Shown piece by piece: positions 15,324 to 37,881 of a DNA stretch of 64,000 nt. The DNA lies in NCBI RefSeq assembly GCF_041261445.1, contig NZ_JBGCCU010000004.1, positions 62,001 through 126,000 on the forward strand, written 5' to 3'. The notes beneath the pieces are model-generated. The model was not told where the DNA came from and ran no database searches. It saw only the letters and a list, made by a program, of their open reading frames with translations. The position numbers and the translations under genes were made by a program. Origin of the DNA: Catenulispora sp. EB89 (GTDB lineage: Bacteria > Actinomycetota > Actinomycetes > Streptomycetales > Catenulisporaceae). Position 1 is the first letter of the stretch; each line of letters begins with the position of its first letter.

Positions 15324-15965
15324 TCACGGACTGAGACGGCGTAGCGCTTCGACGGTATCGACGTCGTCAGGACGGCCGGTGTCGGTACAGTCCACGGTGA
15401 CGACGTCCGAGCGCGAGGCGAGGAAGTCGCGGGCTCCGGCGTCGCCGGTCAGCGTCGGAAGCAGGTCGGCGACGGCCTCGCGGCCGAACAGGACCGGATG
15501 CGCACGACGGCCTTCGTAGGCGGCGACGGCGATCGGCGCGCCGTCGCGCCAGGCCTCGGCGAGGCGCTGCACGGCCTCCGCGCCGATGAGCGGCTGGTCG
15601 ACGAGCGTCACGACGACCGCCTCGGCGTCGCGCGCGGCGGACAGGCCGGCGCGGAGCGAGCTGCCCATGCCGGTCTGCCAGTCGGGGTTCAGGACGAGGA
15701 TCGCGTGATGTACGGCGCCGACGTCGAGGGCGCCGACCACGACGAGGACGCGGTCACAGCCGCCGGCGACGAGCGTGGCCACGGCGCGGTCGACGAGGCG
15801 CTCGCCCTGGAAGCGCGCGACGGCCTTGCCGCCGCCGAAGCGGGTGGCGGCGCCGGCGGCCAGGACGATGCCGGTGATGCGGGAAGGTCCGTGGTGGCCG
15901 GGTAGGCGTCTGCGGGACGTGGCGGTCACCGGCGAATCAATGCTCATCGAAAAATCGTCGTTCAT
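15324..15965 (-). CDS. mocA: MocA-type molybdenum cofactor nucleotidyltransferase
   Basis: A 213-residue NTP-transferase of the MobA/MocA group. The nucleotide-binding start ITGIVLAAGAATRFGGGKAV, the DQPLI metal site (VVVTLVDQPLIGAEAV) and the C-terminal GDAGARDFL block are all present. MocA adds cytidylate to molybdopterin to make the dinucleotide cofactor used by hydroxylases of the CoxL type. The ATG at 15965 overlaps the xdhC stop as ATGA, so the two are translationally coupled. It is the last gene of the catabolic minus-strand run, which fits a cofactor-maturation role for the Mo hydroxylase encoded upstream. Confidence 0.87.
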   Translation of the reverse strand: MNDDFSMSIDSPVTATSRRRLPGHHGPSRITGIVLAAGAATRFGGGKAVARFQGERLVDRAVATLVAGGCDRVLVVVGALDVGAVHHAILVLNPDWQTGMGSSLRAGLSAARDAEAVVVTLVDQPLIGAEAVQRLAEAWRDGAPIAVAAYEGRRAHPVLFGREAVADLLPTLTGDAGARDFLASRSDVVTVDCTDTGRPDDVDTVEALRRLSP

Positions 15966-17080
15966 CGGTGAATCCGTCCCCTCGTCCGCCGCAGCGGCTC
16001 CCCACTCCCCCGCCGCCGCGCCGCGACCAGCTCCGCCGCGATCGACACCGCGGTCTCCGCCGGGGTCGAGGCGCCGAGGTCGAGCCCGATCGGCGCGGCG
16101 AGACGGGCGAGTTCGTGCTCTGTGACGCCCGCGTCGCGCAGCCGCCGCTCGCGGTCCTCGCACGTGCGCCGCGAGCCCATCGCGCCGACGTAGAGCGCCG
16201 GCGAGCGCAGCGCGATCTGGAGCGCCGGCACGTCGAATTTCGGGTCGTGGGTCAGCACGCAGATCGCCGTCCGGGCGTCGATCGACGTCACGGCCAGGTA
16301 CTTGTGCGGCCAGGCGACCACGACCTCGTGCGCGTTCGGGAAGCGCTCGTTCGTGGCGAACACCGGCCGCGCGTCGCAGACCGTCACCCAGTAGCCGAGG
16401 AAGCGGCCGACGGTCGCCAGTGACGCCGCGTAGTCCAGGGCGCCGAGGATGATCATCCGTGGCGGTGCGGCCATCACGTTGAAGAACACTGTCACGCTGT
16501 CCGGCTCGTCCCACGCCGCGACCCCAGCCGCCGGTGCCGGACACCCGTCCAGCCGGTACCGCCGCAGCGCCGGCTCCCCCACGTCCACCAGCGCGTCGGC
16601 GTCCCGCGCGACCGCGTCGGCCAGCGCCTCGTAACCGTTGGCGCGCAGGACGTCGCCGTGGTGCAGCCCCACCAGCTCCGGCGGGCCGGCGGTGACCGTG
16701 ACCACCGCGGCGCCGGCGCCCTGCTCGACCGCGTCGTGCACGCGGTCCAGGTGCGCGGTGGCGGCCGTTCCCGGCTCGACGAACACCGACAGGGTGCCGC
16801 CGCAGGTCAGGCCGACCGCGTCGGAGTCCTCCAGGCCGTATGTGTGCAGCCGGGGCCGGCCGTCGGCGAGGACTTCCGCCGCGGCCTCGATCACCGCCGC
16901 CTCGACGCAGCCCCCGGACACGCTGCCGACCACCTCGCCCGGCACGCCGCCGGTCATCCGCACCGCCATCGCCGCGCCGAGTTCGCGCGGCCCGCCGCCG
17001 TCCGCGGCCACCACGGTGGCCAGGACGAACGGCTCCCCGGCGGCACGCCAGGCGAGCAGGGTGGGCAGCAGGTCACGCAC
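15962..17080 (-). CDS. xdhC: XdhC/CoxI-family Mo-hydroxylase maturation factor
   Basis: A 372-residue protein with both XdhC domains: the N-terminal XdhC/CoxI domain (FVLATVVAADGG, then GSVSGGCVEAAVI) and a C-terminal Rossmann domain (RMIILGALDYAASLATVGRF, then YVGAMGSRRT). XdhC proteins bind molybdenum cofactor, deliver it in sulfurated form and insert it into xanthine-dehydrogenase-like enzymes. The GTG start at 17080 lies 2 bases after the stop of the barbiturase-family gene. Its place among the Mo hydroxylase and mocA genes supports a dedicated maturation role. Confidence 0.9.
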   Translation of the reverse strand: MRDLLPTLLAWRAAGEPFVLATVVAADGGGPRELGAAMAVRMTGGVPGEVVGSVSGGCVEAAVIEAAAEVLADGRPRLHTYGLEDSDAVGLTCGGTLSVFVEPGTAATAHLDRVHDAVEQGAGAAVVTVTAGPPELVGLHHGDVLRANGYEALADAVARDADALVDVGEPALRRYRLDGCPAPAAGVAAWDEPDSVTVFFNVMAAPPRMIILGALDYAASLATVGRFLGYWVTVCDARPVFATNERFPNAHEVVVAWPHKYLAVTSIDARTAICVLTHDPKFDVPALQIALRSPALYVGAMGSRRTCEDRERRLRDAGVTEHELARLAAPIGLDLGASTPAETAVSIAAELVAARRRGSGEPLRRTRGRIHR

Positions 17081-17082
17081 GA

Positions 17083-18189
17083 TCAAGCACCCGGGCCCAC
17101 GTCCACGATCGCCGCGACCGGCCCGCCGCCGTCCGGGCCCTGATGCGCGGCCGAGACCGAGACGAAGACCGCCGGGTCGCCGGTCACCGAGGCCGCGACG
17201 CCGCCGACGCAGGCCTTGATCTGCCGGTGCCAGTGCACGTCGGAGTCGTCGAGCATGGCGTTGCGCCGGCCGCGCACCATCCCGTCGGTGCTGGCCTCGC
17301 ACTTGAGGAACACGTTCACCAGCCGGCCGTCCAGGTCCGACGAGCGCGGCCGCTCCGGCAGGTCCAGCCCGGCCGCGCGGATCGCGTCCCAGATGCCGTC
17401 GGCGTCCAGGGCGTCGGTCATCACCGAGTGCCCGATGCGGTAGCGGCCGCCGACGCCGGAGGCGTTGCCGACCACGACGACCTGCGCGCGGTCCAGCTCC
17501 ACGCCCGAGGAGCACGAGGCCACCGACGAATACAGGGCTCTGTCATGCAGCACCGCCTCGTCCGAGGGCATCTCCACCTCGCCGAGCGCGACCGCGATCC
17601 CCAGTGCCGTGCAGCCGTTGGACAGGTCCATCGACTCGTGCGTCTGCTCGGTCCACACCGAGTTCCCACGCGCCTTGGCCTCGCGGATGGTCTGGATCGT
17701 CAGCAGCGGGGTCTTGGTCTGCACGTAGTGCACGTCCGCGGGGTCGTCGATGCCGGCCCGCTTCATCGCCTCGTGGACCGCGTCGGCGACCTTCGTGATC
17801 ATCGCCGACCGGCCGATCTCCTCGGGCAGCAACGGCTCGCTCATCGCGAACCCGACAGTCAGCCGCGGCTCGTCACAGGGCTCTGCGTCGGTCGTGGCGA
17901 AGACGGTCGCGTGCGGCGAGAGCACCCCGTCCGTCCCGCCGGACCACACGATCGGCACCAGCGCGACCTCCGCCTCGCTGCGCGTCCCGAGCCGCACCAG
18001 CGTCTCGCGGAACGCGCGGTCGGCGATGATGCGCGTGTAGTCGTTGACCCCGCCGTTGCCCTCGGTCTTGCCGACGACCGCCACCACCCGGTCGGCCTCG
18101 ACCACCCCGGCGGTGATCAGCTCGGCCAACCCGGACGCATCACTGACGTGCCGCAACGGCACCTTCCGGACCTCGATCGCCTCAGGCAA
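17083..18189 (-). CDS. Ring-opening amidohydrolase, barbiturase / cyanuric acid hydrolase family
   Basis: A 368-residue enzyme, the usual length of the AtzD/barbiturase family. The fold is three repeats, each giving a Ser-Lys pair. Candidate lysines are K41 ([10 protein letters not shown]), K159 (VQTKTP) and K296 (FLKCEAS). Candidate serines are S83 (WSGGTDG), S228 or a neighbour (SCSSGVELD), and S344 or S346 ([10 protein letters not shown]). The C-terminal GPDGGGP loop is kept. Family members open barbiturate to ureidomalonate or cyanuric acid to carboxybiuret. The neighbourhood (NCS2 permease, Mo hydroxylase, carbamate kinase) favours barbiturate and pyrimidine breakdown, but sequence reading alone does not separate the two activities. 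Confidence 0.9.
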
Positions 18190-18193
18190 CTCT

Positions 18194-19132
18194 TTACTCC
18201 TTCTCCACTACAGTTCCGGCTTCCCCAAGAACGGCTTCACGAATACATCCCAACGCGGCGACGACGGCCCGCCGCCCGCCGCCCTCGACGAAGCGGCACG
18301 CCGCCTCCGCCTTCGGCGCCATGCTCCCGCCCCCGAACTCCCCCGCCGCCAGATGCGCACGCAGATCGGCGACGCCGATACGACGCAGGGCCCTGGCATC
18401 GGGCGCGCCGAAGTGCAGGAACATGCTGTCCACGTCGGTGGCGACGACCAGCTGGTCGGCACCGACGGCCCGGGCCAGCAGGACCGCCGAGAGGTCCTTG
18501 TCGATGACGGCCTCGACGCCGACCAGAGCTCCGGTCGACGCCTCACGCGTCATCGGGATCCCGCCGCCACCGCAGGCGACGACGACGTACCCGGCGTCGA
18601 GCAGCGCCGTCGCGGCGGGGGCGTCCAGGATCTCCAGCGGTTCGGGCGAGGCGACCACGCGCCGCCAGCCGCGCTCGCCGCGATCCTCCCAGGTCTGGCC
18701 GTGGGCGATCATCGCAGCAGCCTGATCTTCCGGCAGGTAGCGTCCGACCGGCTTGGTGGGTTTGGTGAATCCGCGGTCGTTCGCATCGACCAGCGTCCGG
18801 GTCACGACCGCCGCGACCGGCTTCGCGATGCTCCGCGCGGCCAGCGCGCCCTCCAGTGCGCTGACGATCACGAACCCGAGCGTCCCCTGCGTCTGCGCGC
18901 CGCACCAGTCGAGCGGCACCGGCGGCACCACGTGCGCGGCCAGCTCGTTCTTCACCAGCAGGTTGCCGACCTGCGGCCCGTTGCCGTGCGTCAGCACCAC
19001 CTCGACGCCGTCCGCGACGAGATCCGCGACCGCCTCCATCGCCACGCCGACCGCCGCGATCTGGTCCTCGGGGCGTGCGCGGCCGTCCGGCGCCGTCATG
19101 GCGTTGCCGCCCAACGCGATCAGGGTCCGCAT
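18194..19132 (-). CDS. Carbamate kinase
   Basis: A 312-residue kinase of the amino-acid kinase fold. Signatures are LIALGGNAM at the start, [24 protein letters not shown] and the C-terminal [18 protein letters not shown] block. It transfers phosphate from carbamoyl phosphate to ADP, giving ATP, CO2 and ammonia. The neighbouring FdrA/YlbE-type proteins are the plausible source of carbamoyl phosphate. The ATG at 19132 lies just after the hyuB stop and the stop lies 4 bases before the barbiturase-family start, so it sits inside a tight operon. No arginine deiminase or ornithine carbamoyltransferase gene is nearby, which argues against an arginine-fermentation role. Confidence 0.9.
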
Positions 19133-19133
19133 G

Positions 19134-21086
19134 TCACAGCCAATCGCAGTAGGCCGACGTCGCGCCGTGCGCCAACCGCGCGAAACCCGGGCCGCGGTCG
19201 AAGAAGGGGAGCGAGCCGCGCGTCGCCCGCATCGTCGCCCGCAGGTCCTCGGTGGCTGCGGTGTCGACGTCGAAGCCCGCGCCGGCGTCGAGAGCGGCGC
19301 CGGATTCGCCGAAAGCCGTGGTCCCGTCCCTGAAACTGTCCGCACGATCCAAGCCGTAGGCGACCTCAAGGGCGTCGGGTCGGGCGCTCGGCGGCACCGA
19401 GGCCATCACCACCCCGTAGTCCCGCAACGCCCCCTCGACCGACACCTTCCCCCATCGCAGATCCCTGACCACGTCCTCGACGGGCCGCTCCAGCGGATCG
19501 CCCCACCCGCCGCCGCCGGTCGTCCGGATCCGGATGACCTCCCCGGCGCCCACCGGCTCGGCGTCCGCCAGCGCGTCGACCACCCGCTCGTCGGGCCCGC
19601 CGGGATCGATCACCACCTCGAACGGCCGGCCGGCCCGGCCGCCCTTCACGCCCCAGCAGGCCAGGATCGAGCGGTCGGCGATGCTCATGAAGTCCGCGTC
19701 CCGCAGCATCCTGATCTGCTTCTCGTAGCCGAGTCCGCCGCGGAAGCGCCCGGGACCGCCGGAGTCCACCGCGAGGCCCAGCTTCTCCACCCGGAACGGC
19801 CAGCGTGCCTCGGCGAACTCCACCGGGATGTTGCGCGAGTCCGGGACCACGTGGATCGTGTCCTCGCCGTCGGCGTAGTAGCGCCCGCCGGAGCCGCCGC
19901 CGAGGACTTCGCGCATGAGATACGGCAGGCCCTCGGCGTCCAGGCCGTAGACGCCGGTGTAGCGGATCGTCTCCTGGTCGGCGGGCATGCGGCCGTCCAC
20001 GGCCTTGGCCAGCGCCCCGGAGAGCACGCCGAGCAGCCGCAGGATCACGAACGTGCGCGCGTTCGTCGGCGCCGGGAACACCGGCGTCAGCAACGTCCCC
20101 GGCGGCGGGAAGCGCATCTCGATCAGCGGCACCACGCCCTCGTTGACGTCCAGCTCGGCCATCCGCTCCGGGCTGTCGGCGAGGTTGCGCAGCACCGGCG
20201 CGAGCCACTTCTTCAGGAAGTTGCCGTCCGCGTAGTCGCCGCAGTGGTTGATCGGCCCCTTCGCCTGCGGCCCGGTGCCGTCGAAGTCGATGACCAGCCG
20301 GCCGCCGTCCTCCGGCAGCTTCGTCACGGTGATCCGCTGCCGGTGCAGCCGCGGCGCGTCGACGCCGTCGTGCTCGGCGTAGTCCTCCCAGGTGTAGGAG
20401 CCGTCGGGGATCTTCGCCAGCACCTCGCGGCGGAAGGTCTCGGTGGTCAGGTCGATGATGGCGTCGAAGCACTCTTCGACGGCCGGGCGTCCGTAGCGCG
20501 CGAACACCTCGCCGAGCCGCCGCGCGCCCATCAGGCAGGCCGAGCACTCCGCGTCCAGGTCGGCGGCCAGCGAGTCCGGCATCCGGGAGTTGCGGGTCAT
20601 GATCTTCAGTGCGGCCTCGTTCGGCACCCCGGCGTCCCACAGCCGGATCGGCGGCACCATCAGGCCCTCTTCGAAGACGCTGCGCGCGCCGGAGGGCATC
20701 GATCCCGGGCACGCGCCGCCGATGTCGTCGTGGTGGCCGAAGGCCTGGACGAAGGCGGCGACGGCGCCGTCGTGGAAGACCGGCACGGTGACGCACAGAT
20801 CCGGCAGGTGGCCGATGCCGCCTTCGGAGAGGTAGACGTCGTTGTGGAAGAAGACGTCGCCGGGGCGCATCGTGTCCATCGGGTAGTCGCGGACCACCGG
20901 ATGCACCAGGGCCGAGTAGGAGCGGCCGGTGAGCTTGCGCAGGCGCGCGTCGTGGATGCCGACGCGGAAGTCGTGGGCGTCGCGGATCATCGGGGAGCGC
21001 GAGGTGCGGGCGATCGCGGTCTCGACCTCGCGCTCGACGGAGGCCAGGGTGCCCTCGACGATCTCCAGCAGGACGGGGTTCAGCAT
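19134..21086 (-). CDS. hyuB: Hydantoinase B / oxoprolinase-family subunit (HyuB)
   Basis: A 650-residue HyuB-family protein. Signatures include IARTSRSPMIRDAHDF at the N-terminus, DTMRPGDVFFHNDVYLSEGG, FGHHDDIGG, GPINHCGDYA, and the late VDSGGPGRFRGGLGYEK and RTTGGGGWGDP motifs. With HyuA these enzymes hydrolyse lactam or hydantoin rings, usually using ATP, or carboxylate ketones in the acetone-carboxylase branch. The pairing with barbiturase and carbamate kinase genes suggests an N-heterocycle substrate. The ATG overlaps the hyuA stop by 7 bases (21080-21086). The last 60 or so residues beyond the GGGGWGDP core are an extra tail. Confidence 0.9.
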   Translation of the reverse strand: MLNPVLLEIVEGTLASVEREVETAIARTSRSPMIRDAHDFRVGIHDARLRKLTGRSYSALVHPVVRDYPMDTMRPGDVFFHNDVYLSEGGIGHLPDLCVTVPVFHDGAVAAFVQAFGHHDDIGGACPGSMPSGARSVFEEGLMVPPIRLWDAGVPNEAALKIMTRNSRMPDSLAADLDAECSACLMGARRLGEVFARYGRPAVEECFDAIIDLTTETFRREVLAKIPDGSYTWEDYAEHDGVDAPRLHRQRITVTKLPEDGGRLVIDFDGTGPQAKGPINHCGDYADGNFLKKWLAPVLRNLADSPERMAELDVNEGVVPLIEMRFPPPGTLLTPVFPAPTNARTFVILRLLGVLSGALAKAVDGRMPADQETIRYTGVYGLDAEGLPYLMREVLGGGSGGRYYADGEDTIHVVPDSRNIPVEFAEARWPFRVEKLGLAVDSGGPGRFRGGLGYEKQIRMLRDADFMSIADRSILACWGVKGGRAGRPFEVVIDPGGPDERVVDALADAEPVGAGEVIRIRTTGGGGWGDPLERPVEDVVRDLRWGKVSVEGALRDYGVVMASVPPSARPDALEVAYGLDRADSFRDGTTAFGESGAALDAGAGFDVDTAATEDLRATMRATRGSLPFFDRGPGFARLAHGATSAYCDWL

Positions 21087-23164
21087 GCGCGGTCCTCCTG
21101 GGTCAGCAGCAGATTGCCCCAGCGGTCCACGTCGCAGACGAATCCGGGATGCACGGGCACGGTCGAGCCGTACTCCTCGATGACGGCGGGGCCCTCGACG
21201 CGGTCGCCGTGTCTCAGGGTTCTCCGGTGGTGGATGGCTGCCGCAACCGGTGCGTCGTCGAACCAGACCTGGCGGACTCCGGCCGGTTCGGGTGATCCGT
21301 CGGTCCGGGCCGGCACCTCGCTGATGTCGGGGCGCCTGATCGGCCCGATTCCGGTGACGCGGAGGTTCACCCATTCCACGACCTGGCGGTCGTCGTCGCG
21401 GAAGGAGTATCCGTACATACCTTCGTGGGCGGCGTGGAAGGCTGCCACCACGCTCTCGGCGGCGAAGTCTCCGTCGGGTACCGGGACGCGGACTTCGTAG
21501 GCCTGTCCGAAGTAGCGGAGGTCGGCGCTGCGCTTGAACACCTGCTCGGGCTCCTCGAAGCCTTCGGCGTGGAGCGCTTGTGCCGCGCTGGCTTGGAGGT
21601 CGCCGAACAGGGTTCTTACTCGCTCCACGTCGATGCGGTCGTGGCGGCGGACGTGGGTCTGCACGTAGTCGTTGCGGACGTCGACCGTGAGCAGCCCGAA
21701 CGCCGAGACGTTGCCGGGGTCCGGCGGTACCAGCACCCCGCGCACGCCGAGGATGTCGACAAGACGACAAGCCAACAATGCACCGGAGCCACCGAAAGCG
21801 GTCAGCTGGAAGTCGCGGACGTCCAGCCCGCGCTTCACCGTCACCTGTCGCAGGGCATTGGCTTGGTTCCACGCTGAGATCTCCAGGATCCCGGCCGCGA
21901 CCGCTTCCTCGGTCATGCCGAGCTTGCCGCCAAGCCCGGCCAGGCCCGCGCGGGCCGCCTCGCGGTCCAGTGGGACCTCGCCGCCGAGCAGCCCGGCGGG
22001 GATGCGGCCCAGGACCAGGTGCGCGTCGGTGACCGTGACCTCCGTGCCGCCGCGGCCGTAGCAGACCGGGCCGGGATCGGCGCCGGCCGAGCGGGGACCG
22101 ACCTTGAGCGTGCCCTCCGGGGACAGCCAGGCGATCGAGCCGCCGCCGGCGCCGACCGTGACGACGTCGATCATCGGGATCTTCGACGGGTAGCCGCCGA
22201 CGCCGCCCTCGGTGGTGACGGCCGGCTCGCCGTGCAGCACGACGGCGACGTCGGTCGAGGTGCCGCCGCCGTCGAGGGTCAGGATGCGGTCGAAGCCGGC
22301 GTGCGCGGAGATGAGGGCCGCGCCGAGGGCTCCGGCGGCCGGTCCGGACAGGACGGTGGTGACCGGTTGGCGGATGACTTCCTCGGCGGACAGGACGCCG
22401 CCGTTGGACTTCATGACGTAGAAGGGGATGCTGCGAGCGTTGTCCGGTAAAGGATTCGGCACGGGATTCAGCGCGTCGAGGCGGGCGCGGATGCGGCCGA
22501 CGTAGCCGGACACGGTCGGTTTCACGGCGGCGTCTACAAGCGTGGTCATCGAGCGCTCGTACTCGCGGTATTCGGGCAGGACGTCGGAGGATATCGACAC
22601 CGCGGCCTCGGGGAACTCCGCTTCGAGGACGTCGCGCATCGCTTGTTCGTGTTCTGCGTTGGCGTAGGAGTGCAGGAAGGACACGCCGATGGAGCGGACA
22701 CCTGCGGCTTTGAGGTGGCGCGCGGCTTCTTTGGCGTCGGCGGTACTGAAGGCGCGGACTTCTTGGCCGTCGGCGTCGAGGCGTCCTCCGACGCCGCGGA
22801 CCAGGTCGGCGGGGACGATGCGGGGCGGCTTGACCCAGAAGTAGCTGTTGCCGTAGCCGTCGGGGACGGACTGGCGGGCGATCTCCAGCAGGTGTTCGAA
22901 CCCTGCGGTGGTGATGAAGCCGAGCCGGTCGACCTTGCCCTGGAGGAGTTGGTTGGTGGCGACGGTGGTGCCGTGGCTGACGACGGCGATGTCCTCGGGG
23001 GCCGCGTCCAGGAGTGTCAGGGCTTTGCGGACCGCAGCGATGAAGCCCTCCGAGGGGTCGGCGGGGGTCGAGGGGACCTTGCCGGCCACTGCCCGGCCGG
23101 TCTGGTCGTCGATCGCCACGACGTCGGTGAACGTCCCGCCGGTGTCGATGCCGATCCGGATCAT
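21080..23164 (-). CDS. hyuA: Hydantoinase A / oxoprolinase-family ATPase subunit (HyuA)
   Basis: A 694-residue protein of the HyuA family with an actin/hexokinase-like ATPase fold. It starts RIGIDTGGTFTDVVAID (phosphate 1), and contains VSHGTTVATNQLL, LSGPAAGALGA, ILTLDGGGTSTDVAVV (phosphate 2) and VGAGGGSIAW. It supplies ATP hydrolysis to the HyuB partner. The ATG at 23164 overlaps the nitrilase-family stop as ATGA. Full length, with all ATPase motifs intact. Whether the pair acts on a hydantoin, an oxoproline-like lactam or an intermediate of the barbiturate route cannot be told from sequence. Confidence 0.92.
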   Translation of the reverse strand: MIRIGIDTGGTFTDVVAIDDQTGRAVAGKVPSTPADPSEGFIAAVRKALTLLDAAPEDIAVVSHGTTVATNQLLQGKVDRLGFITTAGFEHLLEIARQSVPDGYGNSYFWVKPPRIVPADLVRGVGGRLDADGQEVRAFSTADAKEAARHLKAAGVRSIGVSFLHSYANAEHEQAMRDVLEAEFPEAAVSISSDVLPEYREYERSMTTLVDAAVKPTVSGYVGRIRARLDALNPVPNPLPDNARSIPFYVMKSNGGVLSAEEVIRQPVTTVLSGPAAGALGAALISAHAGFDRILTLDGGGTSTDVAVVLHGEPAVTTEGGVGGYPSKIPMIDVVTVGAGGGSIAWLSPEGTLKVGPRSAGADPGPVCYGRGGTEVTVTDAHLVLGRIPAGLLGGEVPLDREAARAGLAGLGGKLGMTEEAVAAGILEISAWNQANALRQVTVKRGLDVRDFQLTAFGGSGALLACRLVDILGVRGVLVPPDPGNVSAFGLLTVDVRNDYVQTHVRRHDRIDVERVRTLFGDLQASAAQALHAEGFEEPEQVFKRSADLRYFGQAYEVRVPVPDGDFAAESVVAAFHAAHEGMYGYSFRDDDRQVVEWVNLRVTGIGPIRRPDISEVPARTDGSPEPAGVRQVWFDDAPVAAAIHHRRTLRHGDRVEGPAVIEEYGSTVPVHPGFVCDVDRWGNLLLTQEDRAC

Positions 23165-24066: not shown

Positions 24067-24335
24067 GGGACGGCTCCGGGGGTTCTGGGGCGAAGCGCTT
24101 CAGCGGGAGCCATGGCGCGGTGAGTACCGGTAAGGCCACGTTGGTCGGCTACACCGACGCGGCTGTCGGTCAACGGCATCTGCTTGCGCGCGCCAACACC
24201 GCCGGCGCTGCCTGCCGCCGCACAAATCACTTGGCTGAGCAACGGCGCGGCCGCGAGAACAAGCCCTGCGCCGCCGACGTGAAGCGCTCCAGTCTTGCGG
24301 CGGCGCGGGCCCGAGTCCGCGCCGCGCGCCGTCAT
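24054..24335 (-). CDS. Small hypothetical ORF translationally coupled on both sides
   Basis: A 93-codon frame. Its ATG (24335-24333) overlaps the coxG stop as ATGA, and its stop at 24054 lies 12 bases inside the start of the nitrilase-family gene. The predicted peptide has one weakly hydrophobic stretch (HVGGAGLVLAAAPLLSQVIC, about residues 19-38) and an Arg/Pro-rich tail. No family is recognised. If it is not translated, the 265 bases between coxG and the amidase gene would be the longest non-coding gap inside this part of the operon. The overlap geometry is the main argument for it; composition alone does not decide. Confidence 0.35.
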   Translation of the reverse strand: MTARGADSGPRRRKTGALHVGGAGLVLAAAPLLSQVICAAAGSAGGVGARKQMPLTDSRVGVADQRGLTGTHRAMAPAEALRPRTPGAVPCVR

Positions 24336-30439: not shown

Positions 30440-32572
30440 TCACAGGCCTCGCATGTGGAGGATACGGAGAGCGACCGAAAGGTCGAGACGGAGATCGGGG
30501 CGCTCCATGAAGGGGCCGACGAGGCGCTCGATCTTGCCGATGCGGTAACGCAGGGTGTTGTAGTGGAAGTGCAGGCGGCGAGCGGCCTCGGCGACGTTCA
30601 GGTTGGTGTCGAGGAGGACTTCGAGGGTGGTGCGCAGGTCCTCGGCGTCGGGATCGCCGTCGGCGGCCAGGCCTTTGAGCGTCTGGCGCGCGAAGTCGCG
30701 GAGCTCCGCCGGGTCCGGGACCAGGGAGAGCAGGCGGTAGACGCCGAGGGCGTCGAAGTGCGCGACCGAGCCGGGACCGTTGAGGCGGCGGCCTATGCGG
30801 ACCGCGCGGCGCGCTTCCTCGTAGGCGGCGGGGAGGTCGGCGACGGTGGCGACGCGGCGGGAGACACCGGTGGAGAAGGTGCGGCGACCGCCTCCGCCAG
30901 TGCCGGAGACCTCGGCGATGAGGCTTTTGACCAGGGGGTCGGGGTCGTCGCCGGTTTTGAGGACGACGACGACTTCCTGGTTGAAGCCGGCCACGGGGTT
31001 GGTGCGGTCGCGGGCGGCGACGACGGTCTGCCAGGCGGCGGCGAAGCGTTCGCGGGCGGGGCGGAGGGCGTGTTGGGAGGCGGGGAGGACGGATTGGCCG
31101 GGGTCCAGTTCGGCGACCAGGACCATGAGGTGGGGGGTGGGGCGGGGGGCTTGGGCTGCGGCGGCGGGGCTTTGGGGCGCGGCACTGACGGTGCCGGAGG
31201 CTGCGGCTGCGGCTGCGGCTGCGGCCGGCGTGGCGGCGTCGGCGGGGGTCGGGGCGGCGGTGTCGCCCGCAGGGGCCTGAGCGGCAGCGGCGCCGGATCC
31301 GCCGCCGTTGGTGGTCGCGCCGTATTGCCCGGTCTGGTGCCCGGCCTGTTGCCCCGTCTGGTGCCCGGCCTGTTGCCCCGTCTGGTGCCCGGCCTGTTGC
31401 CCCGTCTGGTGCCCGGCCTGTTGCCCCGTCTGGCGCCCTGTCTGGTGCCCCGCGTACTGTCCTGGTCCCCTGGTGCCGTTCTGGGGACGGCCGGCCGGTG
31501 CGCGTCCCGGGCTGATGTCCCAGCCGAGCGTCGCGGCGTGCGCGGCGGCCGACTGCAGGTCCTCCAGGCGCCCGGTCAGCAGGTCTCTGAGGAAGTCGGC
31601 GCGGTACTTGTCCTCGACCGCGGCCACCGCCAGCTGCTTGACCACGGACAGCGCGGCGACCGTGGCGGCCCGTTCGAGCGCCGCGACGTCGGCGGCGTCG
31701 AAGGCGCGGCGTCCGGCGAAGGCGACCAGGCGGCCGTGGTCGACGCGTCCGGCGACGATCGGGACCAGCGCGTGCTGCGTGCCGTGGTGCGCGGTCAGGC
31801 CGGGCTGCTCGGCCTCGGTGCGCAGGCGGTGGTCCGCGTCCGGGCCGGGGGCGGCGTCGAAGCAGGGCAGGTGGCGGACGGCGTCGGCGCCGTGCTCGGC
31901 CAGCACCCGGCCGTCCGGCGTGGTGACCAGGACCGGGCCGCCGAGGATGTTCGCCAGCTCGGCGGCGAGCTCGGCCAGGCCGCCGCCCTCCAGCGCGATC
32001 TGCGCGAGCGTGCGGTGGACGTGGTCGGCGCGGGCCAGGACGGCGGACTGGCGGTCGAGGACGTCGGACAGGACGTCGGTGAGGATGTCGTCGAAGGCCA
32101 CACCCTCGGGCAGCTCGATCACCGGGAAGCCGAGCGCGTCGGCGGCGGCGAGGAGCTCGGGCGGGAGGTCGCCGAGGTAGCGGTGCGGCTTGATCGCGAT
32201 GGCGGACAGGCCGGCACGGTCGAGGTCGCCGATGAGGTCGGTGAGCGGCGAGGGCGAGTGGCGCAGCGGGTAGCCGGTGGTGAGGAGGAGTTCCTTGGGC
32301 TTGACCCAGGGGAGGATGTCGGGGACCTCCATCACGTTGACGCGTTCGACGACGCGGTCGTGCCCGGCGTGGCCGGCGACGATGCGGGCACCGGCGAGGG
32401 CGGGGAGGGCCAGGGCCTGGGTGACGGTGAGGCCTATGGGGGCGGGGGTGCGGGTGGCTGGGGTGCTCACCTCTGGACTTTCCGACCGTAGGCGCACGCC
32501 CGGGCTCGGCTCCGTCGGTTCGGTCAGTTCCGTCGTCTCCGTCCGCCGTGCCGACTCTGCCGGCTGTGTCAT
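30440..32572 (-). CDS. PucR-family transcriptional regulator with repeat-built insertion
   Basis: A regulator of about 710 residues. An N-terminal PucR sensor domain (LTVTQALALPALAGARIVAG ... LLTTGYPLR) is followed by a GAF-like region, a CdaR/GGDEF-like region and a C-terminal HTH_30 domain (LNVAEAARRLHFHYNTLRYR). Between the GAF-like and CdaR-like parts lie 120-150 unusual residues, including octapeptide repeats GQQAGHQT and a poly-Ala/Pro stretch. PucR proteins control purine and pyrimidine use. The nearest targets are the permease gene downstream and divergent fdrA. ATG 32572 has a GGGGGAC site; an alternative ATG at 32659 would add 29 residues. Confidence 0.88.
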   Translation of the reverse strand: MTQPAESARRTETTELTEPTEPSPGVRLRSESPEVSTPATRTPAPIGLTVTQALALPALAGARIVAGHAGHDRVVERVNVMEVPDILPWVKPKELLLTTGYPLRHSPSPLTDLIGDLDRAGLSAIAIKPHRYLGDLPPELLAAADALGFPVIELPEGVAFDDILTDVLSDVLDRQSAVLARADHVHRTLAQIALEGGGLAELAAELANILGGPVLVTTPDGRVLAEHGADAVRHLPCFDAAPGPDADHRLRTEAEQPGLTAHHGTQHALVPIVAGRVDHGRLVAFAGRRAFDAADVAALERAATVAALSVVKQLAVAAVEDKYRADFLRDLLTGRLEDLQSAAAHAATLGWDISPGRAPAGRPQNGTRGPGQYAGHQTGRQTGQQAGHQTGQQAGHQTGQQAGHQTGQQAGHQTGQYGATTNGGGSGAAAAQAPAGDTAAPTPADAATPAAAAAAAAASGTVSAAPQSPAAAAQAPRPTPHLMVLVAELDPGQSVLPASQHALRPARERFAAAWQTVVAARDRTNPVAGFNQEVVVVLKTGDDPDPLVKSLIAEVSGTGGGGRRTFSTGVSRRVATVADLPAAYEEARRAVRIGRRLNGPGSVAHFDALGVYRLLSLVPDPAELRDFARQTLKGLAADGDPDAEDLRTTLEVLLDTNLNVAEAARRLHFHYNTLRYRIGKIERLVGPFMERPDLRLDLSVALRILHMRGL
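31333..31452. repeat. 24-bp tandem repeats inside the PucR gene
   Basis: Four identical 24-base units and one diverged unit run from 31333 to 31452. On the coding strand each unit gives the octapeptide GQQAGHQT. Because the period is a multiple of three, copy number can change without breaking the frame. Confidence 0.9.
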
Positions 32573-32715
32573 GCGCTGTCCCCCGTTCGCCTCCGCCGCC
32601 TCGCTTGACGATGTGGATATCTGCGAAGCTCTGGCGCTGTCCTTGTCAGGATTGCCCATGCCCGGACAGTAGCCCCGAGGTCTAGCGTCGCGACAGGCCC
32701 TCGCGGAAAGGATCG
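32573..32715. promoter_or_regulatory. Divergent control region between pucR-type regulator and fdrA
   Basis: The regulator gene (minus) and fdrA (plus) start within 143 bases of each other, or 56 bases if the earlier regulator ATG is used. Promoters for both directions and the likely PucR operator should lie here. No convincing -10/-35 pair or palindrome could be picked by eye. The fdrA ribosome site AAAGGA is at about 32707-32712. Confidence 0.5.
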
Positions 32716-34818
32716 ATGCCGGTGTCGGTGCCAGTGGGAGGCGGAGCGGTCGACGACGTGGCGGTCGAGGCGGCTGAAGCGGCCGGAGGCGCGGCGGCCG
32801 AGGCGGCCGGAGGCGCGGCGGCCGAGGCGGCCGGAGGCGCGGCGGTCGAGGGCGTGGCGGTCGAGCACGTCGAAGTGCGGCGCGGGGAGTACCACGACTC
32901 GGTGACGCTGATGCTCGCCGGCCGCGCGGTCGCCGGGGTGGCGGGCGCGGAGCGCGTGCTGGTGGCGATGGCGACGGAGCTGAACGTCGCACTGCTGGCG
33001 GAGCTGGGGTACTCGGCGCAGGGGCACTCAACGCTGGCGGACATCGGGCCGGCCGACCTCATCGTGGCCTTCACCTGCCCTTCCGCACCCTCGGAATCGG
33101 CGGCGCTGGAGGCACTGACCACCTCGCTCACGCCCACCGCCGCATCCACATCACCGCCCGGTGGCCCCATCACAGCCCCCGGACATCCGCACCCTGACCA
33201 GGCCGGCAACCCCGCCCCCCGCACCACAGCCACCGCACTAGGCCGAACGGGTGCACCCATCACCCTGATTTCCACCCCGGGCCTTGCCTCCGTCACAGAG
33301 GCCATGGAATCATTGGAATACGGCGCATCACCAATCATTTTCAGCGATAACATCCCTATTGAGTACGAAGTACGACTCAAGGATGAAGCACGACGACGCG
33401 GCCTGCTGGTCATGGGCCCCGACTGCGGCACCGTCGTCCTCCACGGAACCGGCCTGGGCTTTGCGAACGTGACCCGCCCGGGCCCCATCAGCCTCGTAGC
33501 AGCCTCCGGCACCGGAGCCCAGCAGCTGATGGCCCTCCTCGACGCAGCAGGCGCCGGCATCCGCCACTGCCTCGGCGTAGGCGGCCGCGACCTGACCGAG
33601 CAGGTGGCGGGCCGCTCCACCCTGGCAGCGCTGACAGCACTCGCAGAAGACCCGGAAACAGACCTCATCACGGTGGTCTCCAAACCACCGCACCCCACCA
33701 TCGCCGCCCGCATCAAAGCCCACGCAGCAACGCTCCCCAAACCCGTCCACTTCGCCTTCGTAGGCCCCGACCACCCCACCCTGACCGAGTCCGCGGAACG
33801 GATCCTCACCGCCCTCGGCCACGCAGCACCCCCGCACTGGCCGCACTGGCCCCCACCCACGACACCCCGCGAGGAGGACACGACCACCGGCAGGGCGCCG
33901 GCCCGCGCCCGCGCCACCACGATCCGCGGCCTGTTCAGCGGCGGCACGCTGCGCGCCGAGGCTGAAGCGGCGCTGCTGCGCGCTGGCGCGCGGAAGATCG
34001 ACAGGCAGGCATCGGGTGGGTGGGGGGAGGGGGAAAGCAAAAGACTGCCAACGCCCGACGCCGACGACGACGCCGGTGCGCTCGACGCGGCCGCCGCGCG
34101 CACGCCCGCCGCTGTGGCCGAAGCTGGACGAGCGCACGCCGGAAACGCTGGCACTGCGGCCGCCGCCGCCGACCAAGCAGAGGCCGCGCACACGCACGCC
34201 GGAAACGCTGGGACCGCACTCGCCACCGCCGACGTCAGCCGCGCCGGAACCGCACGCACGCTCACCACAAGTACGGGCACTGCACTCGGCGCTACTGATG
34301 CTGACCAAGCAGAGGCTGCGCACACCCACTCCGCGGACGCCGGCAGCCCCGCCGACATGGCCGCCGCACTCCCGGCTGCCGCAAACTCGGGGCTAAGCCA
34401 TGCCCCCACCGCCGCCGCCGTCGCGTTCGACCTCACCGACTTCGGCGATGACGCCTACACCCGCGGTCGGCCGCATCCGATGATCGACAACACCCTGCGG
34501 TTGCGGGCTGTGGCGGATGCGGGTGGCGATGCGGGGGTTGGGGTGCTGCTGCTCGACGTGGTGTTGGGGCGGGGTGCGCATGCGGATCCGGCCGGGGAGG
34601 TTGCTGCGGCGATCGCCGGGGTGCGGCGGGTGCGGCCGGAGGTGGCGGTGGTTGTTTCGTTGTGCGGGACGGGTGGGGATCCGCAGGGGTTGGTGCGGCA
34701 GGCGGAGGCCCTGGCGGGTGCTGGAGCTTGGGTCTTCTTGTCGAATGCCGAGGCTGCGGAGGCGGCTGCGGTGTTGGCACGGGGTGGGGTGCCGCGTGGG
34801 GCTGTTGACCGTCACTGA
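32716..34818 (+). CDS. fdrA: FdrA-like protein (acyl-CoA-synthetase fold; oxamate carbamoyltransferase-type subunit)
   Basis: A 700-residue FdrA-family protein. The conserved N-terminal part reads VEVRRGEYHDSVTLMLAGRA, with MGPDCGTVVLHGTGLGFANV and VGGRDL further on. At about residue 406 comes LFSGGTLRAEAEAALL, and the C-terminal part begins YTRGRPHPMIDNTLRLRAVA. FdrA (AllF) is known as a component of oxamate carbamoyltransferase in enterobacteria, which splits oxalurate with phosphate into oxamate and carbamoyl phosphate. Two regions are foreign to the family: three 24-bp repeats near the N-terminus (residues 21-44) and a low-complexity Ala/Thr-rich stretch at about residues 425-560. The start has an AAAGGA site. 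It is followed by ylbE. Confidence 0.85.
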   Translation: MPVSVPVGGGAVDDVAVEAAEAAGGAAAEAAGGAAAEAAGGAAVEGVAVEHVEVRRGEYHDSVTLMLAGRAVAGVAGAERVLVAMATELNVALLAELGYSAQGHSTLADIGPADLIVAFTCPSAPSESAALEALTTSLTPTAASTSPPGGPITAPGHPHPDQAGNPAPRTTATALGRTGAPITLISTPGLASVTEAMESLEYGASPIIFSDNIPIEYEVRLKDEARRRGLLVMGPDCGTVVLHGTGLGFANVTRPGPISLVAASGTGAQQLMALLDAAGAGIRHCLGVGGRDLTEQVAGRSTLAALTALAEDPETDLITVVSKPPHPTIAARIKAHAATLPKPVHFAFVGPDHPTLTESAERILTALGHAAPPHWPHWPPPTTPREEDTTTGRAPARARATTIRGLFSGGTLRAEAEAALLRAGARKIDRQASGGWGEGESKRLPTPDADDDAGALDAAAARTPAAVAEAGRAHAGNAGTAAAAADQAEAAHTHAGNAGTALATADVSRAGTARTLTTSTGTALGATDADQAEAAHTHSADAGSPADMAAALPAAANSGLSHAPTAAAVAFDLTDFGDDAYTRGRPHPMIDNTLRLRAVADAGGDAGVGVLLLDVVLGRGAHADPAGEVAAAIAGVRRVRPEVAVVVSLCGTGGDPQGLVRQAEALAGAGAWVFLSNAEAAEAAAVLARGGVPRGAVDRH
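32776..32847. repeat. Three 24-bp tandem repeats at the 5' end of fdrA
   Basis: Units start at 32776, 32800 and 32824 and differ by one or two bases (gaggcggccggaggcgcggc as the core). They encode EAAGGAAA-type repeats ahead of the conserved FdrA domain. Confidence 0.85.
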
Positions 34819-34841
34819 TCGCTACGACTGGCAGGACGTCG

Positions 34842-36497
34842 ATGTCATTGCTCGAAGAATCTGGTTCCGCGATGTCTGACGCCGGTGTGCATGACGGCGC
34901 CGAGTCTGCTCCCCCGGTCGCTCGGCTTGCTCCTACGCATGTCGTCGCGGCTGGCGTTGCTGGGTTCGCCGACGATCTTGTGGCGCAGGGGGTGGCGGTG
35001 ACGCGGGTTGACTGGCGGCCGCCGCCGGTGGGGGCTGAGGGCGATCTTGCCGATGTGGCGCTGGATCGGCGGCGGGGTGAGGCCAATGCGCTGGCCGTGC
35101 GGCGGATGCAGGCGGCGGGTGCCGAGTTGGTGGATGTGCGGCCGGCTCGGGAGGTGCTCGGGTTGGCGCCAGGACAGTTTCTGCACGCGGGGCCGCCGAT
35201 CGGGTGGGGGCGGGCTTCGGGGCCGTTGCGGGGTGCGCTGATCGGGGCGGCGCTGTTCGAGGGGCTGGTGGGGACGCCGGAAGAGGCCGCGGCCTGGTTC
35301 GCCGGAGACGGAACCGGGGCGAGGGCTGGGGATGGGGCTGGGGCTGGCGACGGCGAGGGCGAAAACGGCAGCCGCGCCACCGCCAGAACCACCGCCCCCA
35401 AACTGGCCCCCTGCCATCACCACGGCGGCGTGGGGCCGATGGCCGGCGTCGTGTCGCCGAGCATGTGGCTCTTCGAGCTGCGCGATCCGGTCTCGGGGGG
35501 TACGGCGTGGTGCAGCTTGAACGAGGGGCTCGGCAAGGTGCTGCGGTACGGCGCGTTCGGGCCGGAGGTCGTTGCTCGGCTGCGGTGGATGTCGTCGGTG
35601 CTCGGGCCGATGCTGCAGCGGGCTGTGCGGCGGCGGGGGCCGGTGGATGTGAAGGCGATCGTTGCGCAGATGCTGCACATGGGCGATGAGGGGCATAACC
35701 GGAATCGGGCCGGGACGCTCATGTTGCTGCGGGAGTTGTTGCCGTCGCTGATTGAGAACGGGGAGGATGCGCGGGATTTGGCTGACGTCGTGCGCTTCGT
35801 CTCCGGGAACGATCACTTCTTCCTCAACCTCGTGATGCCCGCGTGCAAGTTGGCGGCGCAGGCTGCGGCGGGGGTGCCGGGCAGCACGGTGGTGACTGTC
35901 ATGGCGCGGAATGGGACCGACTTCGGGATTCAGACTTCGGGGACCGGGGATCGGTGGTTCACCGCGCCGGCGAATACGCCTGAGGGGCTTTTTCTTGCCG
36001 GGTATGGGGCTGGGGATGCCAATCCGGATATCGGGGATTCCGCGATCACCGAGACGGCGGGGGTCGGGGGGTTCGCCATGGCGGCCGCGCCGGCGATCGC
36101 GCGGTTGGTCGGGGGGACGGCGGCGAGTGCGGTGGCGACGACGCGGCTGATGTACGAGATCACGCTTGGCGAGAACGCCGCGTTCACGGTGCCGGCGCTC
36201 GACTTCCGGGGGACGCCGACCGCGATCGATGTCAGCCGGGTCGTGCGGACCGGGGTGCTGCCGCAGATCAACACCGGGATGGCCGGGCGAGTGGCGGGGA
36301 CCGGGCAGGTCGGGGCCGGGTTGGTGACGCCGCCGATGGAGTGCTTCACACAGGCGCTCGCGGCGCTGGCGGAACTGGCACGGGAGGAAGAGCGATCGGC
36401 ACGGGAGGAAGAGCGATCAGCGCGAGCGGACGCCGGACCGGTGCGGGCGGAAGGGGAACCGACGCGGGCGGATGCGGAACTGGCGCCGGGATGGTGA
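34842..36497 (+). CDS. ylbE: YlbE-like DUF1116 protein (oxamate carbamoyltransferase-type subunit)
   Basis: A 551-residue DUF1116 protein, the usual partner of FdrA (AllG in the enterobacterial oxamate carbamoyltransferase). Conserved blocks are PCHHHGGVGPMAGVVSPSMW, SLNEGLGKVLRYGA, MLHMGDEGHNRNRAGT, FVSGNDHFFLNLVMPA and SVVTVMARNG-like TVVTVMARNGTDFGI. A Gly/Ala/Glu-rich insertion occupies about residues 155-185. The last 40 residues (REEERSAREEERSARADAG and onward) are a 42-bp tandem repeat translated in frame. ATG 34842 is used; ATG 34872 is an alternative. A DUF2877 (AllH) partner gene is not in the window. Confidence 0.85.
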   Translation: MSLLEESGSAMSDAGVHDGAESAPPVARLAPTHVVAAGVAGFADDLVAQGVAVTRVDWRPPPVGAEGDLADVALDRRRGEANALAVRRMQAAGAELVDVRPAREVLGLAPGQFLHAGPPIGWGRASGPLRGALIGAALFEGLVGTPEEAAAWFAGDGTGARAGDGAGAGDGEGENGSRATARTTAPKLAPCHHHGGVGPMAGVVSPSMWLFELRDPVSGGTAWCSLNEGLGKVLRYGAFGPEVVARLRWMSSVLGPMLQRAVRRRGPVDVKAIVAQMLHMGDEGHNRNRAGTLMLLRELLPSLIENGEDARDLADVVRFVSGNDHFFLNLVMPACKLAAQAAAGVPGSTVVTVMARNGTDFGIQTSGTGDRWFTAPANTPEGLFLAGYGAGDANPDIGDSAITETAGVGGFAMAAAPAIARLVGGTAASAVATTRLMYEITLGENAAFTVPALDFRGTPTAIDVSRVVRTGVLPQINTGMAGRVAGTGQVGAGLVTPPMECFTQALAALAELAREEERSAREEERSARADAGPVRAEGEPTRADAELAPGW

Positions 36498-36696
36498 GGC
36501 GGCGGATGCGGAAGCACGCGTAGACCCGGAAGGTGAACCGGCGCGGACGGATGCCGAGCTAGTGCGGGCGGAGGGCGAACCGGCTCGGACCGATGCCGAG
36601 CTAGTGCGGGCGGAAAGCAAACAGGCTCGGACCGATGCCGAGCTGGTGCGAGCGGAAGGCGATACAACGCGCGCGGATGCGGAACTGGCGCCCGGA
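36408..36696. repeat. 42-bp tandem repeat array across the ylbE stop codon
   Basis: Two 42-base units end the ylbE coding sequence (36408-36449, 36450-36491). After a 37-base interruption carrying the stop, four more units follow (36529, 36571, 36613 and 36655), encoding EGEPARTDAELVRA-type peptides in another frame. The last unit of each block ends in the same way (gcggatgcggaactggcgcc), so the second block looks like a duplicate of the gene's 3' end. Confidence 0.85.
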
Positions 36697-36912
36697 CGGT
36701 GAGGCACCGCCGAGATGGCGAAGGAACGGATTCAGGTGCGCGGAACCGCTCGTAGATGCGGAAGGGAAGCCGGCCCACGCCGATCGGCCGTCGAAGCGAC
36801 CCCGAACCATCACCCGCCGCCAAATCACCCGAAACCGTAGCACCCACACCGCGCCCGCGCTCCCTACCGCACCCGCCGCAGCTGCGTGCGGTCGCCCCGG
36901 TACGGTGGCGCC

Positions 36913-37881
36913 GTGCTCAACGCGTTCATACCCATCTGGTTGCTGACCGCTCTCGGCTACCTCACCGCTCGGTTCGATCTGGTGGGGGCGGTGTCCGCTG
37001 ATGTGGAGGCGGTGCTGGGGCGTTTCGTTTTCCGGGTGGCGATGCCGGCGTCGTTGTTCGGGATGTTGGCGAAGGCTGATCTGCACGCGTTGGCGAACAC
37101 TTCGATCGTGGCGTTCGGGGTCAGTTCGCTGGTGGCGTGCGGGATCGGGTTGGTGATGGGGACGCGGTTGTTCGGGCGTGATGTGCCGAACGGGGCGGTG
37201 GTCGCGATGGCTTCCGGGTACGTCAACTCCGCCAATCTGGGCATCCCGGTGGCGGTGCAGGTGCTGGGCAACGCCGTCTTCTTGTCGACTGTGATCCTGT
37301 TCAACACCGTGCTCGTGACGCCGATCGTGTTGACGCTCATGGGCCTCAGTGACGGTCCCGCGCCAGGGCTGCGGCAGCGGTTGCGGGGCATAGCCATGCT
37401 GCCGGTACACAATCCGATCATCATCGCGTCGGCGTTCGGGGCGTTGGTGTCGGCGACGCACTTCCACGTTCCGGTGGACGTGAGCAGCGCGCTCAGCCTG
37501 CTCGGCGGTGCTGCTGTACCGGTGGCTCTGATCACGCTGGGGATGTCTCTGCACGGTGGCAAAAGGGCAGCGCCAGAGGCCACGAATCAGGCTAAGTTCG
37601 CAAGAACTAGAAAATCGGTTGTTACTGAGACTATCGCATCGATCACCCTGAAGACGGCCTTCCAACCAGTCCTCGCATACGTCCTCGCGCACTACGTCCT
37701 CAACCTCCCCGCGCACGACGTCCTCGCCGTCACCCTCTGCGCCGCCCTCCCCACGGCCCAGAACGTGTTCATCTACGCCAGCGAATACGCCCTCGACACC
37801 ACCTTCGCCCGCAACTCCGTGATCTTCTCCACGGTCGCGTCCATGGCAGGGCTCTGGACGGTTGCCGCGCTCTTGAAGTGA
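36913..37881 (+). CDS. AEC-family (auxin efflux carrier / MdcF-like) transporter
   Basis: A 322-residue membrane protein with ten or so hydrophobic segments in the 5+5 arrangement of the AEC family. It starts LNAFIPIWLLTALGYLTARF, with ASGYVNSANLGIPVAVQVLG as the family's conserved NxxNxGxP-type helix break and LPTAQNVFIYASEY as its counterpart in the second half. AEC members carry malonate (MdcF), auxin or dicarboxylates. Beside a putative ureidomalonate route, malonate is a plausible substrate. A GTG at 36913 is preferred because it begins the first helix. A spacer of about 400 bases filled with repeats separates it from ylbE. Confidence 0.87.
   Translation: MLNAFIPIWLLTALGYLTARFDLVGAVSADVEAVLGRFVFRVAMPASLFGMLAKADLHALANTSIVAFGVSSLVACGIGLVMGTRLFGRDVPNGAVVAMASGYVNSANLGIPVAVQVLGNAVFLSTVILFNTVLVTPIVLTLMGLSDGPAPGLRQRLRGIAMLPVHNPIIIASAFGALVSATHFHVPVDVSSALSLLGGAAVPVALITLGMSLHGGKRAAPEATNQAKFARTRKSVVTETIASITLKTAFQPVLAYVLAHYVLNLPAHDVLAVTLCAALPTAQNVFIYASEYALDTTFARNSVIFSTVASMAGLWTVAALLK

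Follow-up and report, generated by a model that had tools for sequence, protein, structure and literature searches.

Here, we present an analysis of a gene island in the actinobacterium Catenulispora sp. EB89 (genome, 11.9 Mb), located in a stretch of 64,000 nucleotides (contig NZ_JBGCCU010000004.1, positions 62,001 to 126,000; referred to here as the window). We consider it probable, from sequence comparisons, that this island encodes a phosphorolytic branch of oxidative pyrimidine degradation that recovers adenosine triphosphate (ATP). This reading draws on the gene content of the island, the barbiturase signature of its ring-opening enzyme, the linkage and co-occurrence of the genes in relatives, and a separate clade of the carbamoyltransferase subunit AllG (YlbE). 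The island comprises a run of 12 tightly packed genes on the minus strand, in the order NCS2 permease, molybdenum hydroxylase subunits (FAD, 2Fe-2S, and large molybdenum cofactor [MoCo] subunit), CoxG, nitrilase-family protein, HyuA, HyuB, carbamate kinase, barbiturase, XdhC, and MocA. Neighboring genes in this run overlap or lie 1 to 4 bp apart, except for two gaps of 136 bp and 265 bp. The gene for a PucR-family regulator lies upstream on the same strand, while those for FdrA, AllG, and an AEC-family carrier are divergent. The initial annotation of this DNA had listed the same gene content, and Pfam searches and gene models place every gene that it named where it had put them (Table 1).

In the route that we propose, the nucleobase permease would import uracil, and perhaps thymine. 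With XdhC, MocA, and CoxG as its maturation factors, the molybdenum hydroxylase would oxidize uracil to barbiturate, and barbiturase would open the barbiturate ring to yield ureidomalonate. In Escherichia coli, AllFGH is the oxamic transcarbamylase that connects oxalurate plus phosphate to oxamate plus carbamoyl phosphate, and the carbamate kinase is AllK (PMC11326118; this and the other articles cited are used in excerpt). Ureidomalonate is oxalurate extended by one CH2 group; thus, malonamate and carbamoyl phosphate are the products expected if FdrA-AllG, together with AllH in most relatives, acts on ureidomalonate and phosphate as AllFGH does on oxalurate. Carbamate kinase would then use carbamoyl phosphate and ADP to form ATP, ammonia, and CO2, and an amidase (of the nitrilase type here and of the amidase-signature type in many Nocardioides loci) would convert malonamate to malonate and ammonia. 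In many relatives, a nearby coenzyme A (CoA)-transferase and carboxyltransferase could convert malonate to acetyl-CoA. The likely regulator of the island is PucR. Beyond what family membership indicates, we infer the reactions of this route, phosphorolysis above all.

The ring-opening enzyme is a full-length member of PF09663 (484 bits, positions 1 to 358 of 358), a fold family shared with the cyanuric acid hydrolases AtzD and TrzD. According to the excerpted text of PMC3758960, five positions discriminate within this family, with R-T-R-G-G in cyanuric acid hydrolases and N-H-K-V-S/A in barbiturases (Asn195, His321, Lys325, Val345, and Ser/Ala346 in AtzD numbering). PMC4051656, also in excerpt, gives a glutamine for barbiturases where PMC3758960 gives the asparagine at a nearby position; our signature test is based on the positions, and the asparagine, of PMC3758960. 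The window enzyme carries N191, H321, K325, V345, and S346 and, thus, matches all five published barbiturase positions. Its best solved relative is 5hwe, named "Barbiturase" (642 bits), versus at most 332 bits for chains named cyanuric acid amidohydrolase. NCBIfam NF052395 labels the enzyme a cyanuric acid amidohydrolase (484 bits; cut-off, 360), in conflict with the signature. Despite this label, we reject a function as cyanuric acid hydrolase on the basis of the signature and the closest solved relative, and we conclude that, as predicted from its residues, the enzyme is a barbiturase (Toblerone group VI). The N-H-K-V-[SA] signature is present in all of 80 named loci, i.e., the best 80 of more than 570 barbiturase relatives, among which Catenulispora rubra is nearest (L157, 99% identity). 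It is also present in all 36 stretches from the window's class, and N-H-K-V-[SAG] in 11 of 11 loci outside this class. Because the window enzyme has the N-H-K-V-S signature and its relatives have the same core, it likely acts on barbiturate and yields ureidomalonate. Three Toblerone-family proteins with ∼39% identity (L305, L306, and L309) carry a mixed N-H-K-G-G and fit neither signature.

The initial annotation had proposed a search of actinobacteria for the co-occurrence of barbiturase, fdrA, ylbE, and carbamate kinase. We used a sample of 394 genomes of the window's class and, for genomes outside the class, a phylum sample of 296 genomes; co-occurrence counts and Fisher values ignore the kinship between genomes. 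In the class sample, 81 genomes have a match to the ring-opening enzyme family, which is barbiturase-like (>400 bits) in 76, and 88 genomes have AllG. Both are found in 74 genomes, only barbiturase in 2, only AllG in 14, and neither in 304; that is, AllG is present in 74 of the 76 genomes with barbiturase versus 14 of the 318 genomes without it. The five genomes with only distant family members lack AllG. By database labels, the 74 genomes with both span 15 families. Where barbiturase and AllG genes are on the same contig, they are on opposite strands in 48 of 48 cases and 12 kb to 1.7 Mb apart; the remaining pairs are on different contigs. Outside the class, 11 genomes have a barbiturase with 66 to 69% identity and the N-H-K-V signature, and all 11 have AllG. 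By contrast, AllG is present in none of three genomes with a 45% homologue; one of these homologues carries the signature of cyanuric acid hydrolases, and N-H-K-V is not seen in the remaining two where the positions are readable. Thus, the pattern holds both inside and outside the class, and the proposed search returned a near-complete association of AllG with barbiturase in two samples as well as single-strand linkage in five loci. In one locus with a barbiturase (N-H-K-V-A) and no AllG (L156, genome G206), the context is different, with P450-family and glutamine-synthetase-family genes as neighbors.

To describe gene order, we took the neighborhoods of 34 of the 74 genomes with barbiturase and AllG (the window included; all but G315 of 24 selected same-contig genomes and 10 of 15 with separated genes), of the 14 with only AllG, and of the 2 with only barbiturase. 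Of the 80 named loci, 64 have the carbamate kinase gene directly upstream of the barbiturase gene, and 5 have it at another place in the locus; in the other 11, it is out of view. Outside the class, 5 of 10 loci (L290, L291, L295, L296, and L299) have, by homology, genes for barbiturase, NCS2, carbamate kinase, AllH, FdrA, and AllG in this order on one strand, with a divergent PucR gene. In L290, the reading frames from carbamate kinase through AllH and FdrA to AllG overlap by 1 to 4 bp. In L290, L295, and L299, the same strand continues with genes for a molybdenum hydroxylase. In L291, the 4.3 kb beyond AllG gave no such gene, and the stretch of L296 breaks off inside AllG. L296 has, among the genes that separate barbiturase from NCS2, one of the cytidine/cytosine deaminase family (PF00383) and one for a permease of the cytosine/uracil type (PF02133), pointing to cytosine and uracil as the feed. 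Of the remaining loci, L298 lacks a carbamate kinase match but encodes barbiturase, AllH, FdrA, AllG, and the hydroxylase; L297 is truncated by the end of its contig, and the stretches of L292, L293, and L294 stop short of AllG. Also in L298 (6013-9639), genes for an ABC-transporter permease and an NMT1/THI5-like binding protein adjoin the barbiturase gene, and no NCS2 match was seen.

In phylogenetic trees of AllG, from which rows of less than 280 residues had been dropped, the barbiturase-linked sequences form one clade with support of 100/97 in the class set and 98/96 after genomes outside the class were added (midpoint root). This clade excludes AllG and YahG of E. coli as well as AllG of most actinobacteria without barbiturase; long branches lead to the E. 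coli rows, making their exact placement unsure. Two rows within the clade come from genomes without a barbiturase match (G023 and G108), both of which are 80% complete. Outside the clade, E. coli K-12 (L272, 2926-9508) has in YahE-YahF-YahG-YahI-YahJ a second set of AllH, FdrA, AllG, and carbamate kinase together with an amidohydrolase, which may carry out another ureido-acid phosphorolysis. Similarly, barbiturase-less clusters in G288 (L142, 6140-13696) and G003 (L140) combine FdrA, AllG, and carbamate kinase with an isochorismatase-family gene and likely serve another substrate; L142 also encodes AllH and a protein with an allophanate hydrolase C-terminal domain.

A different arrangement is found in five named loci, in which an amidase gene follows barbiturase and no carbamate kinase is in view. 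Four of these are from Rhodococcus/Rhodococcoides (including R. erythropolis NBRC 15567 and R. fascians) and one is from Haloechinothrix halophila. From the 80 named loci, we picked 50 so as to cover the amidase type and the majority of loci with carbamate kinase out of view, and we searched for AllG in the genomes of 48 of these (all except L179 and L205). AllG is absent from 5 of 5 amidase-type genomes versus 2 of the 43 others (Fisher, 1.2e-5). The window itself has the order carbamate kinase-barbiturase-XdhC and not the Rhodococcus arrangement. The Rhodococcus amidases are 76 to 94% identical among themselves and ∼40% identical to the amidases encoded in the slot between CoxG and HyuA in Nocardioides-type clusters. 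Ureidomalonase has reportedly been described from R. erythropolis, and we suggest the Rhodococcus amidase encoded beside barbiturase as a candidate for this enzyme. Among 27 loci, the slot between CoxG and HyuA is filled in 20 (7 with nitrilase, 13 with amidase), all of them of the non-amidase type, and it is empty in the amidase-type loci L183 and L192. In the window, the slot holds the nitrilase-family protein, in which the aligned Glu, Lys, and Cys of the usual triad are visible. Genes for a family III CoA-transferase and a carboxyltransferase, a candidate module for converting malonate to acetyl-CoA, lie near barbiturase in both types of loci (e.g., L134, 12962-14140, and L102, 9464-10963), in keeping with malonate as the end product of both.

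Both AllF (FdrA) and AllG are encoded in the window, and their features bear on the possibility that the carbamoyltransferase has decayed in this genome while the route works in relatives. FdrA matches PRK06091 (NF004760) with 333.8 bits, below the curated cut-off of 433, and has a low-complexity insert of ∼160 residues (approximately 33949-34431). Searches for AllH, which is the third subunit in E. coli, found none in the window genome or in any of the other genomes of its family (absent in 14 of 14, the window genome included); looking for a copy concealed within FdrA or in other parts of the window gave nothing convincing, the best match (E 0.004) lying outside the island at 51953-52102, and a purpose-built hidden Markov model found none. 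AllG is present in 7 of these 14 genomes, and 3 of the 7 without it are of the same genus (irrespective of barbiturase). However, the frames of FdrA and AllG are open, AllG covers 214 of 215 positions of its family profile (321 bits), and FdrA-AllG keep their divergent orientation to this operon in two other Catenulispora genomes (L300 and L301), which makes decay unlikely in our view. Carbamate kinase matches NF009007 above its cut-off (302.6 versus 266 bits) and TIGR00746 below it (319.8 versus 358 bits). In the barbiturase-linked AllG stretches, an AllH match (E 1e-5) is present in 32 of 34, two of them weak; the misses are the window and G390. Catenulispora has either a two-subunit carbamoyltransferase or a diverged third subunit.

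Alternatively, FdrA-AllG could be an ordinary oxamate carbamoyltransferase that acts on oxalurate from purine breakdown and is parked in a nucleobase island, with the amidase hydrolyzing ureidomalonate to urea and malonate. The sole tested family member that we found uses oxalurate (PMC11326118, in excerpt), the regulator of the island is of the PucR type, and the window genome has a urease. However, with the purine side judged by AllD alone, AllD reaches its cut-off in none of the 394 class genomes, and the window genome has not even a weaker match; the known source of oxalurate is, therefore, missing, and for this reason we lowered our estimate of this possibility. Moreover, AllG tracks barbiturase, lies on one strand with it, in a fixed order, in five loci from outside the class, forms its own clade, and is missing in the five genomes in which an amidase follows barbiturase and no carbamate kinase is in view. 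Altogether, we regard a function in oxalurate metabolism as improbable. The nitrilase-family or amidase-signature protein of the island could also be a hydrolytic ureidomalonase producing urea and malonate, while FdrA-AllG and carbamate kinase would serve another ureido compound, either made by HyuAB or derived from thymine (5-methylbarbiturate to ureido-methylmalonate). Urea and malonate are the textbook end of the pathway (PMC3758960, in excerpt), HyuA and HyuB occur without an assigned role in the stretches of 30 of 50 genomes, and the Haloechinothrix amidase beside barbiturase is ∼50% identical to the slot amidase. In opposition to this, no urease was seen in 43 of the 74 genomes with barbiturase and AllG, the loci outside the class in which barbiturase, carbamate kinase, and AllHFG stay together gave no HyuAB match, and HyuA or HyuAB is encoded in L183 and L192, the genomes of which lack AllG. 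We, therefore, give hydrolysis by the island amidase a low probability.

Several observations weigh against phosphorolysis of ureidomalonate as the function of FdrA-AllG. In addition to the missing AllH, allFG without AllH restored only 7% of oxamate in E. coli, according to the excerpts of PMC11326118. Weaker AllD-family matches, below the cut-off, in 73 of the 394 class genomes make another oxalurate source possible. Two Catenulispora drafts (the two exceptions among the 43 genomes above) have barbiturase and carbamate kinase yet lack AllG; five loci with neither carbamate kinase in view nor the Rhodococcus-like amidase (L197, L201, L211, L223, and L228) are from genomes with AllG; and in L186, carbamate kinase and an amidase-like match both lie beside barbiturase in a genome with AllG. 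Haloechinothrix lacks AllG but has no urease either, and its amidase is closer to the slot type than to the Rhodococcus type (∼40%). As for the amidase, no recognized amidase was found in the slot in 5 of 25 loci outside the amidase type (AllG was searched for in part of these 25 genomes), and the operons of L290 and L299 likewise showed none. The proposal of the initial annotation that the amidase converts malonamate to malonate is, thus, less well supported, with the 20 filled slots for it and these two operons against it. Urease was counted in the class genomes and the genomes of named loci. The window genome has one urease alpha match, and a urease is found in 31 of the 74 class genomes with barbiturase and AllG, some matches being borderline, and not shown in the other 43, indicating that urea avoidance is not a rule. 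The difference between amidase-type genomes (4 of 5) and other named genomes (11 of 43) is in the expected direction and weak (Fisher, 0.028); because of this weakness and the urease of the window genome, we dropped urease as a sharp discriminator between the routes. The initial annotation had proposed phosphorolysis by FdrA/AllG with ATP formation by carbamate kinase in place of urea. The first part held in most of our comparisons and is well supported by the co-occurrence, the linkage in five loci, the AllG clade, and the absence of AllG from the five amidase-type genomes without carbamate kinase in view. A bypass of urea as a rule is less supported, given the urease counts, the window genome included.

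Two further components of the island have no place in the proposed phosphorolysis. In many class clusters, HyuA and HyuB are encoded between the molybdenum hydroxylase and carbamate kinase, as in the window (19134-23164). Because they were not found in the loci outside the class and are present in loci of genomes without AllG, we reject them as part of phosphorolysis; HyuAB is accessory, and that our scheme leaves it without a role is a further point against the scheme. Possibly, HyuAB is a putative ATP-dependent ring opener for 5-methylbarbiturate from thymine. In the case of the AEC-family carrier, matches beside AllG were found only in Catenulispora among the loci searched, and the earlier suggestion that it transports malonate is not supported.

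Table 1. Genes of the island, with positions in the window
Feature	Position	Strand	Basis
MocA-like nucleoside triphosphate transferase, molybdenum cofactor maturation	15324..15965	-	PF12804, gene model
XdhC/CoxI family maturation factor	15962..17080	-	PF13478, PF02625, gene model
Barbiturase (barbiturate to ureidomalonate, by family)	17083..18189	-	PF09663; 5hwe 642 bits; signature N-H-K-V-S
Carbamate kinase, 4 bp upstream of barbiturase	18194..19132	-	NF009007 302.6 bits, gene model
HyuB, hydantoinase B/oxoprolinase family	19134..21086	-	PF02538, gene model
HyuA, hydantoinase A/oxoprolinase family	21080..23164	-	PF01968, PF05378, PF19278, gene model
Nitrilase-superfamily amidase, candidate malonamate amidohydrolase	23161..24066	-	PF00795
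CoxG-like protein	24332..25024	-	PF06240
Molybdenum hydroxylase large subunit, candidate uracil/thymine dehydrogenase	25021..27417	-	PF02738, PF20256, PF01315; best solved relative quinoline 2-oxidoreductase 1t3q
Molybdenum hydroxylase 2Fe-2S subunit	27410..27928	-	PF01799, PF00111, gene model
Molybdenum hydroxylase FAD subunit	27925..28773	-	PF00941, PF03450, gene model
NCS2-family nucleobase permease	28910..30358	-	PF00860, gene model
PucR-family regulator, start uncertain	30440..32659	-	PF07905, PF13556, PF17853, gene model
FdrA/AllF subunit, start taken from homology	32866..34818	+	PRK06091 333.8 bits, 3dmy, tblastn with relatives
AllG (YlbE), carbamoyltransferase subunit; conserved part ends near 36350	34842..36497	+	PF06545 321 bits, 3clq, trees
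AEC-family carrier	36886..37881	+	PF03547

The PucR gene contains QAGHQTG-type repeats, and DUF1707 (SHOCT-like) genes are located on both flanks of the island (14703-15317 and 39055-39678).

Three known systems invite comparison. As for E. coli AllFGH and AllK, homologues of FdrA, AllG, and, in most relatives, AllH are encoded near carbamate kinase, the likely substrate is the N-carbamoyl amide of a short diacid, and ATP would derive from carbamoyl phosphate (PMC11326118, in excerpt). The same excerpts give kinetics of purified AllFGH for carbamoyl phosphate and oxamate as substrates; the genes were already candidates for this step in an earlier computational study (PMC3364942, in excerpt), and a 2025 study reports allFGHK adjoining biuret genes in nitrifiers (PMC12625717, in excerpt). 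The barbiturase-associated set differs from the E. coli system in that it is linked to barbiturase and molybdenum hydroxylase rather than to allantoin genes, with no AllD above the cut-off; AllG forms a separate clade, AllH is missing in the window's family, and the predicted substrate is one carbon longer. With the oxidative pyrimidine pathway of Rhodococcus (uracil/thymine dehydrogenase, barbiturase, and ureidomalonase), the island and its relatives share the barbiturase group, NCS2, the molybdenum hydroxylase, and matches to the CoA-transferase and carboxyltransferase (L183). However, in Rhodococcus an amidase follows barbiturase, no carbamate kinase is in view, and AllG is lacking, while the window has carbamate kinase and FdrA-AllG. 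Finally, the arginine deiminase type of pathway, with catabolic ornithine carbamoyltransferase and carbamate kinase, similarly couples phosphorolysis of a carbamoyl compound to ATP formation by carbamate kinase; however, the excerpts of PMC11326118 state that AllFGH has no similarity to ornithine carbamoyltransferase. Most likely, the island, thus, places known chemistry (AllFGH and carbamate kinase) within a known pathway (oxidative pyrimidine degradation). Among the papers listed in our literature searches, we found no description of ureidomalonate phosphorolysis or of the combination of barbiturase, AllFGH, and carbamate kinase, and we noticed no named genes for uracil/thymine dehydrogenase or ureidomalonase.

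Our analysis offers candidates for these genes, i.e., the molybdenum hydroxylase for uracil/thymine dehydrogenase and the Rhodococcus amidase beside barbiturase for ureidomalonase. For a carbamoyltransferase family whose genes became known only in 2024 (PMC11326118, in excerpt), it also suggests a second substrate that can be tested. If phosphorolysis of ureidomalonate takes place as proposed, the last steps of a classical catabolic pathway would have to be rewritten, with the carbamoyl group banked as ATP and not wasted as urea. We lean toward a broader view, in which Actinomycetota, both within the window's class and beyond it, would usually degrade pyrimidines oxidatively by the phosphorolytic and not the urea route. 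In this view, AllFGH would also represent a larger family of phosphorylases for ureido acids, the substrates of which differ between lineages, with oxalurate used in E. coli, ureidomalonate in the bacteria studied here, and other compounds by YahEFG and the AllG clusters without barbiturase.

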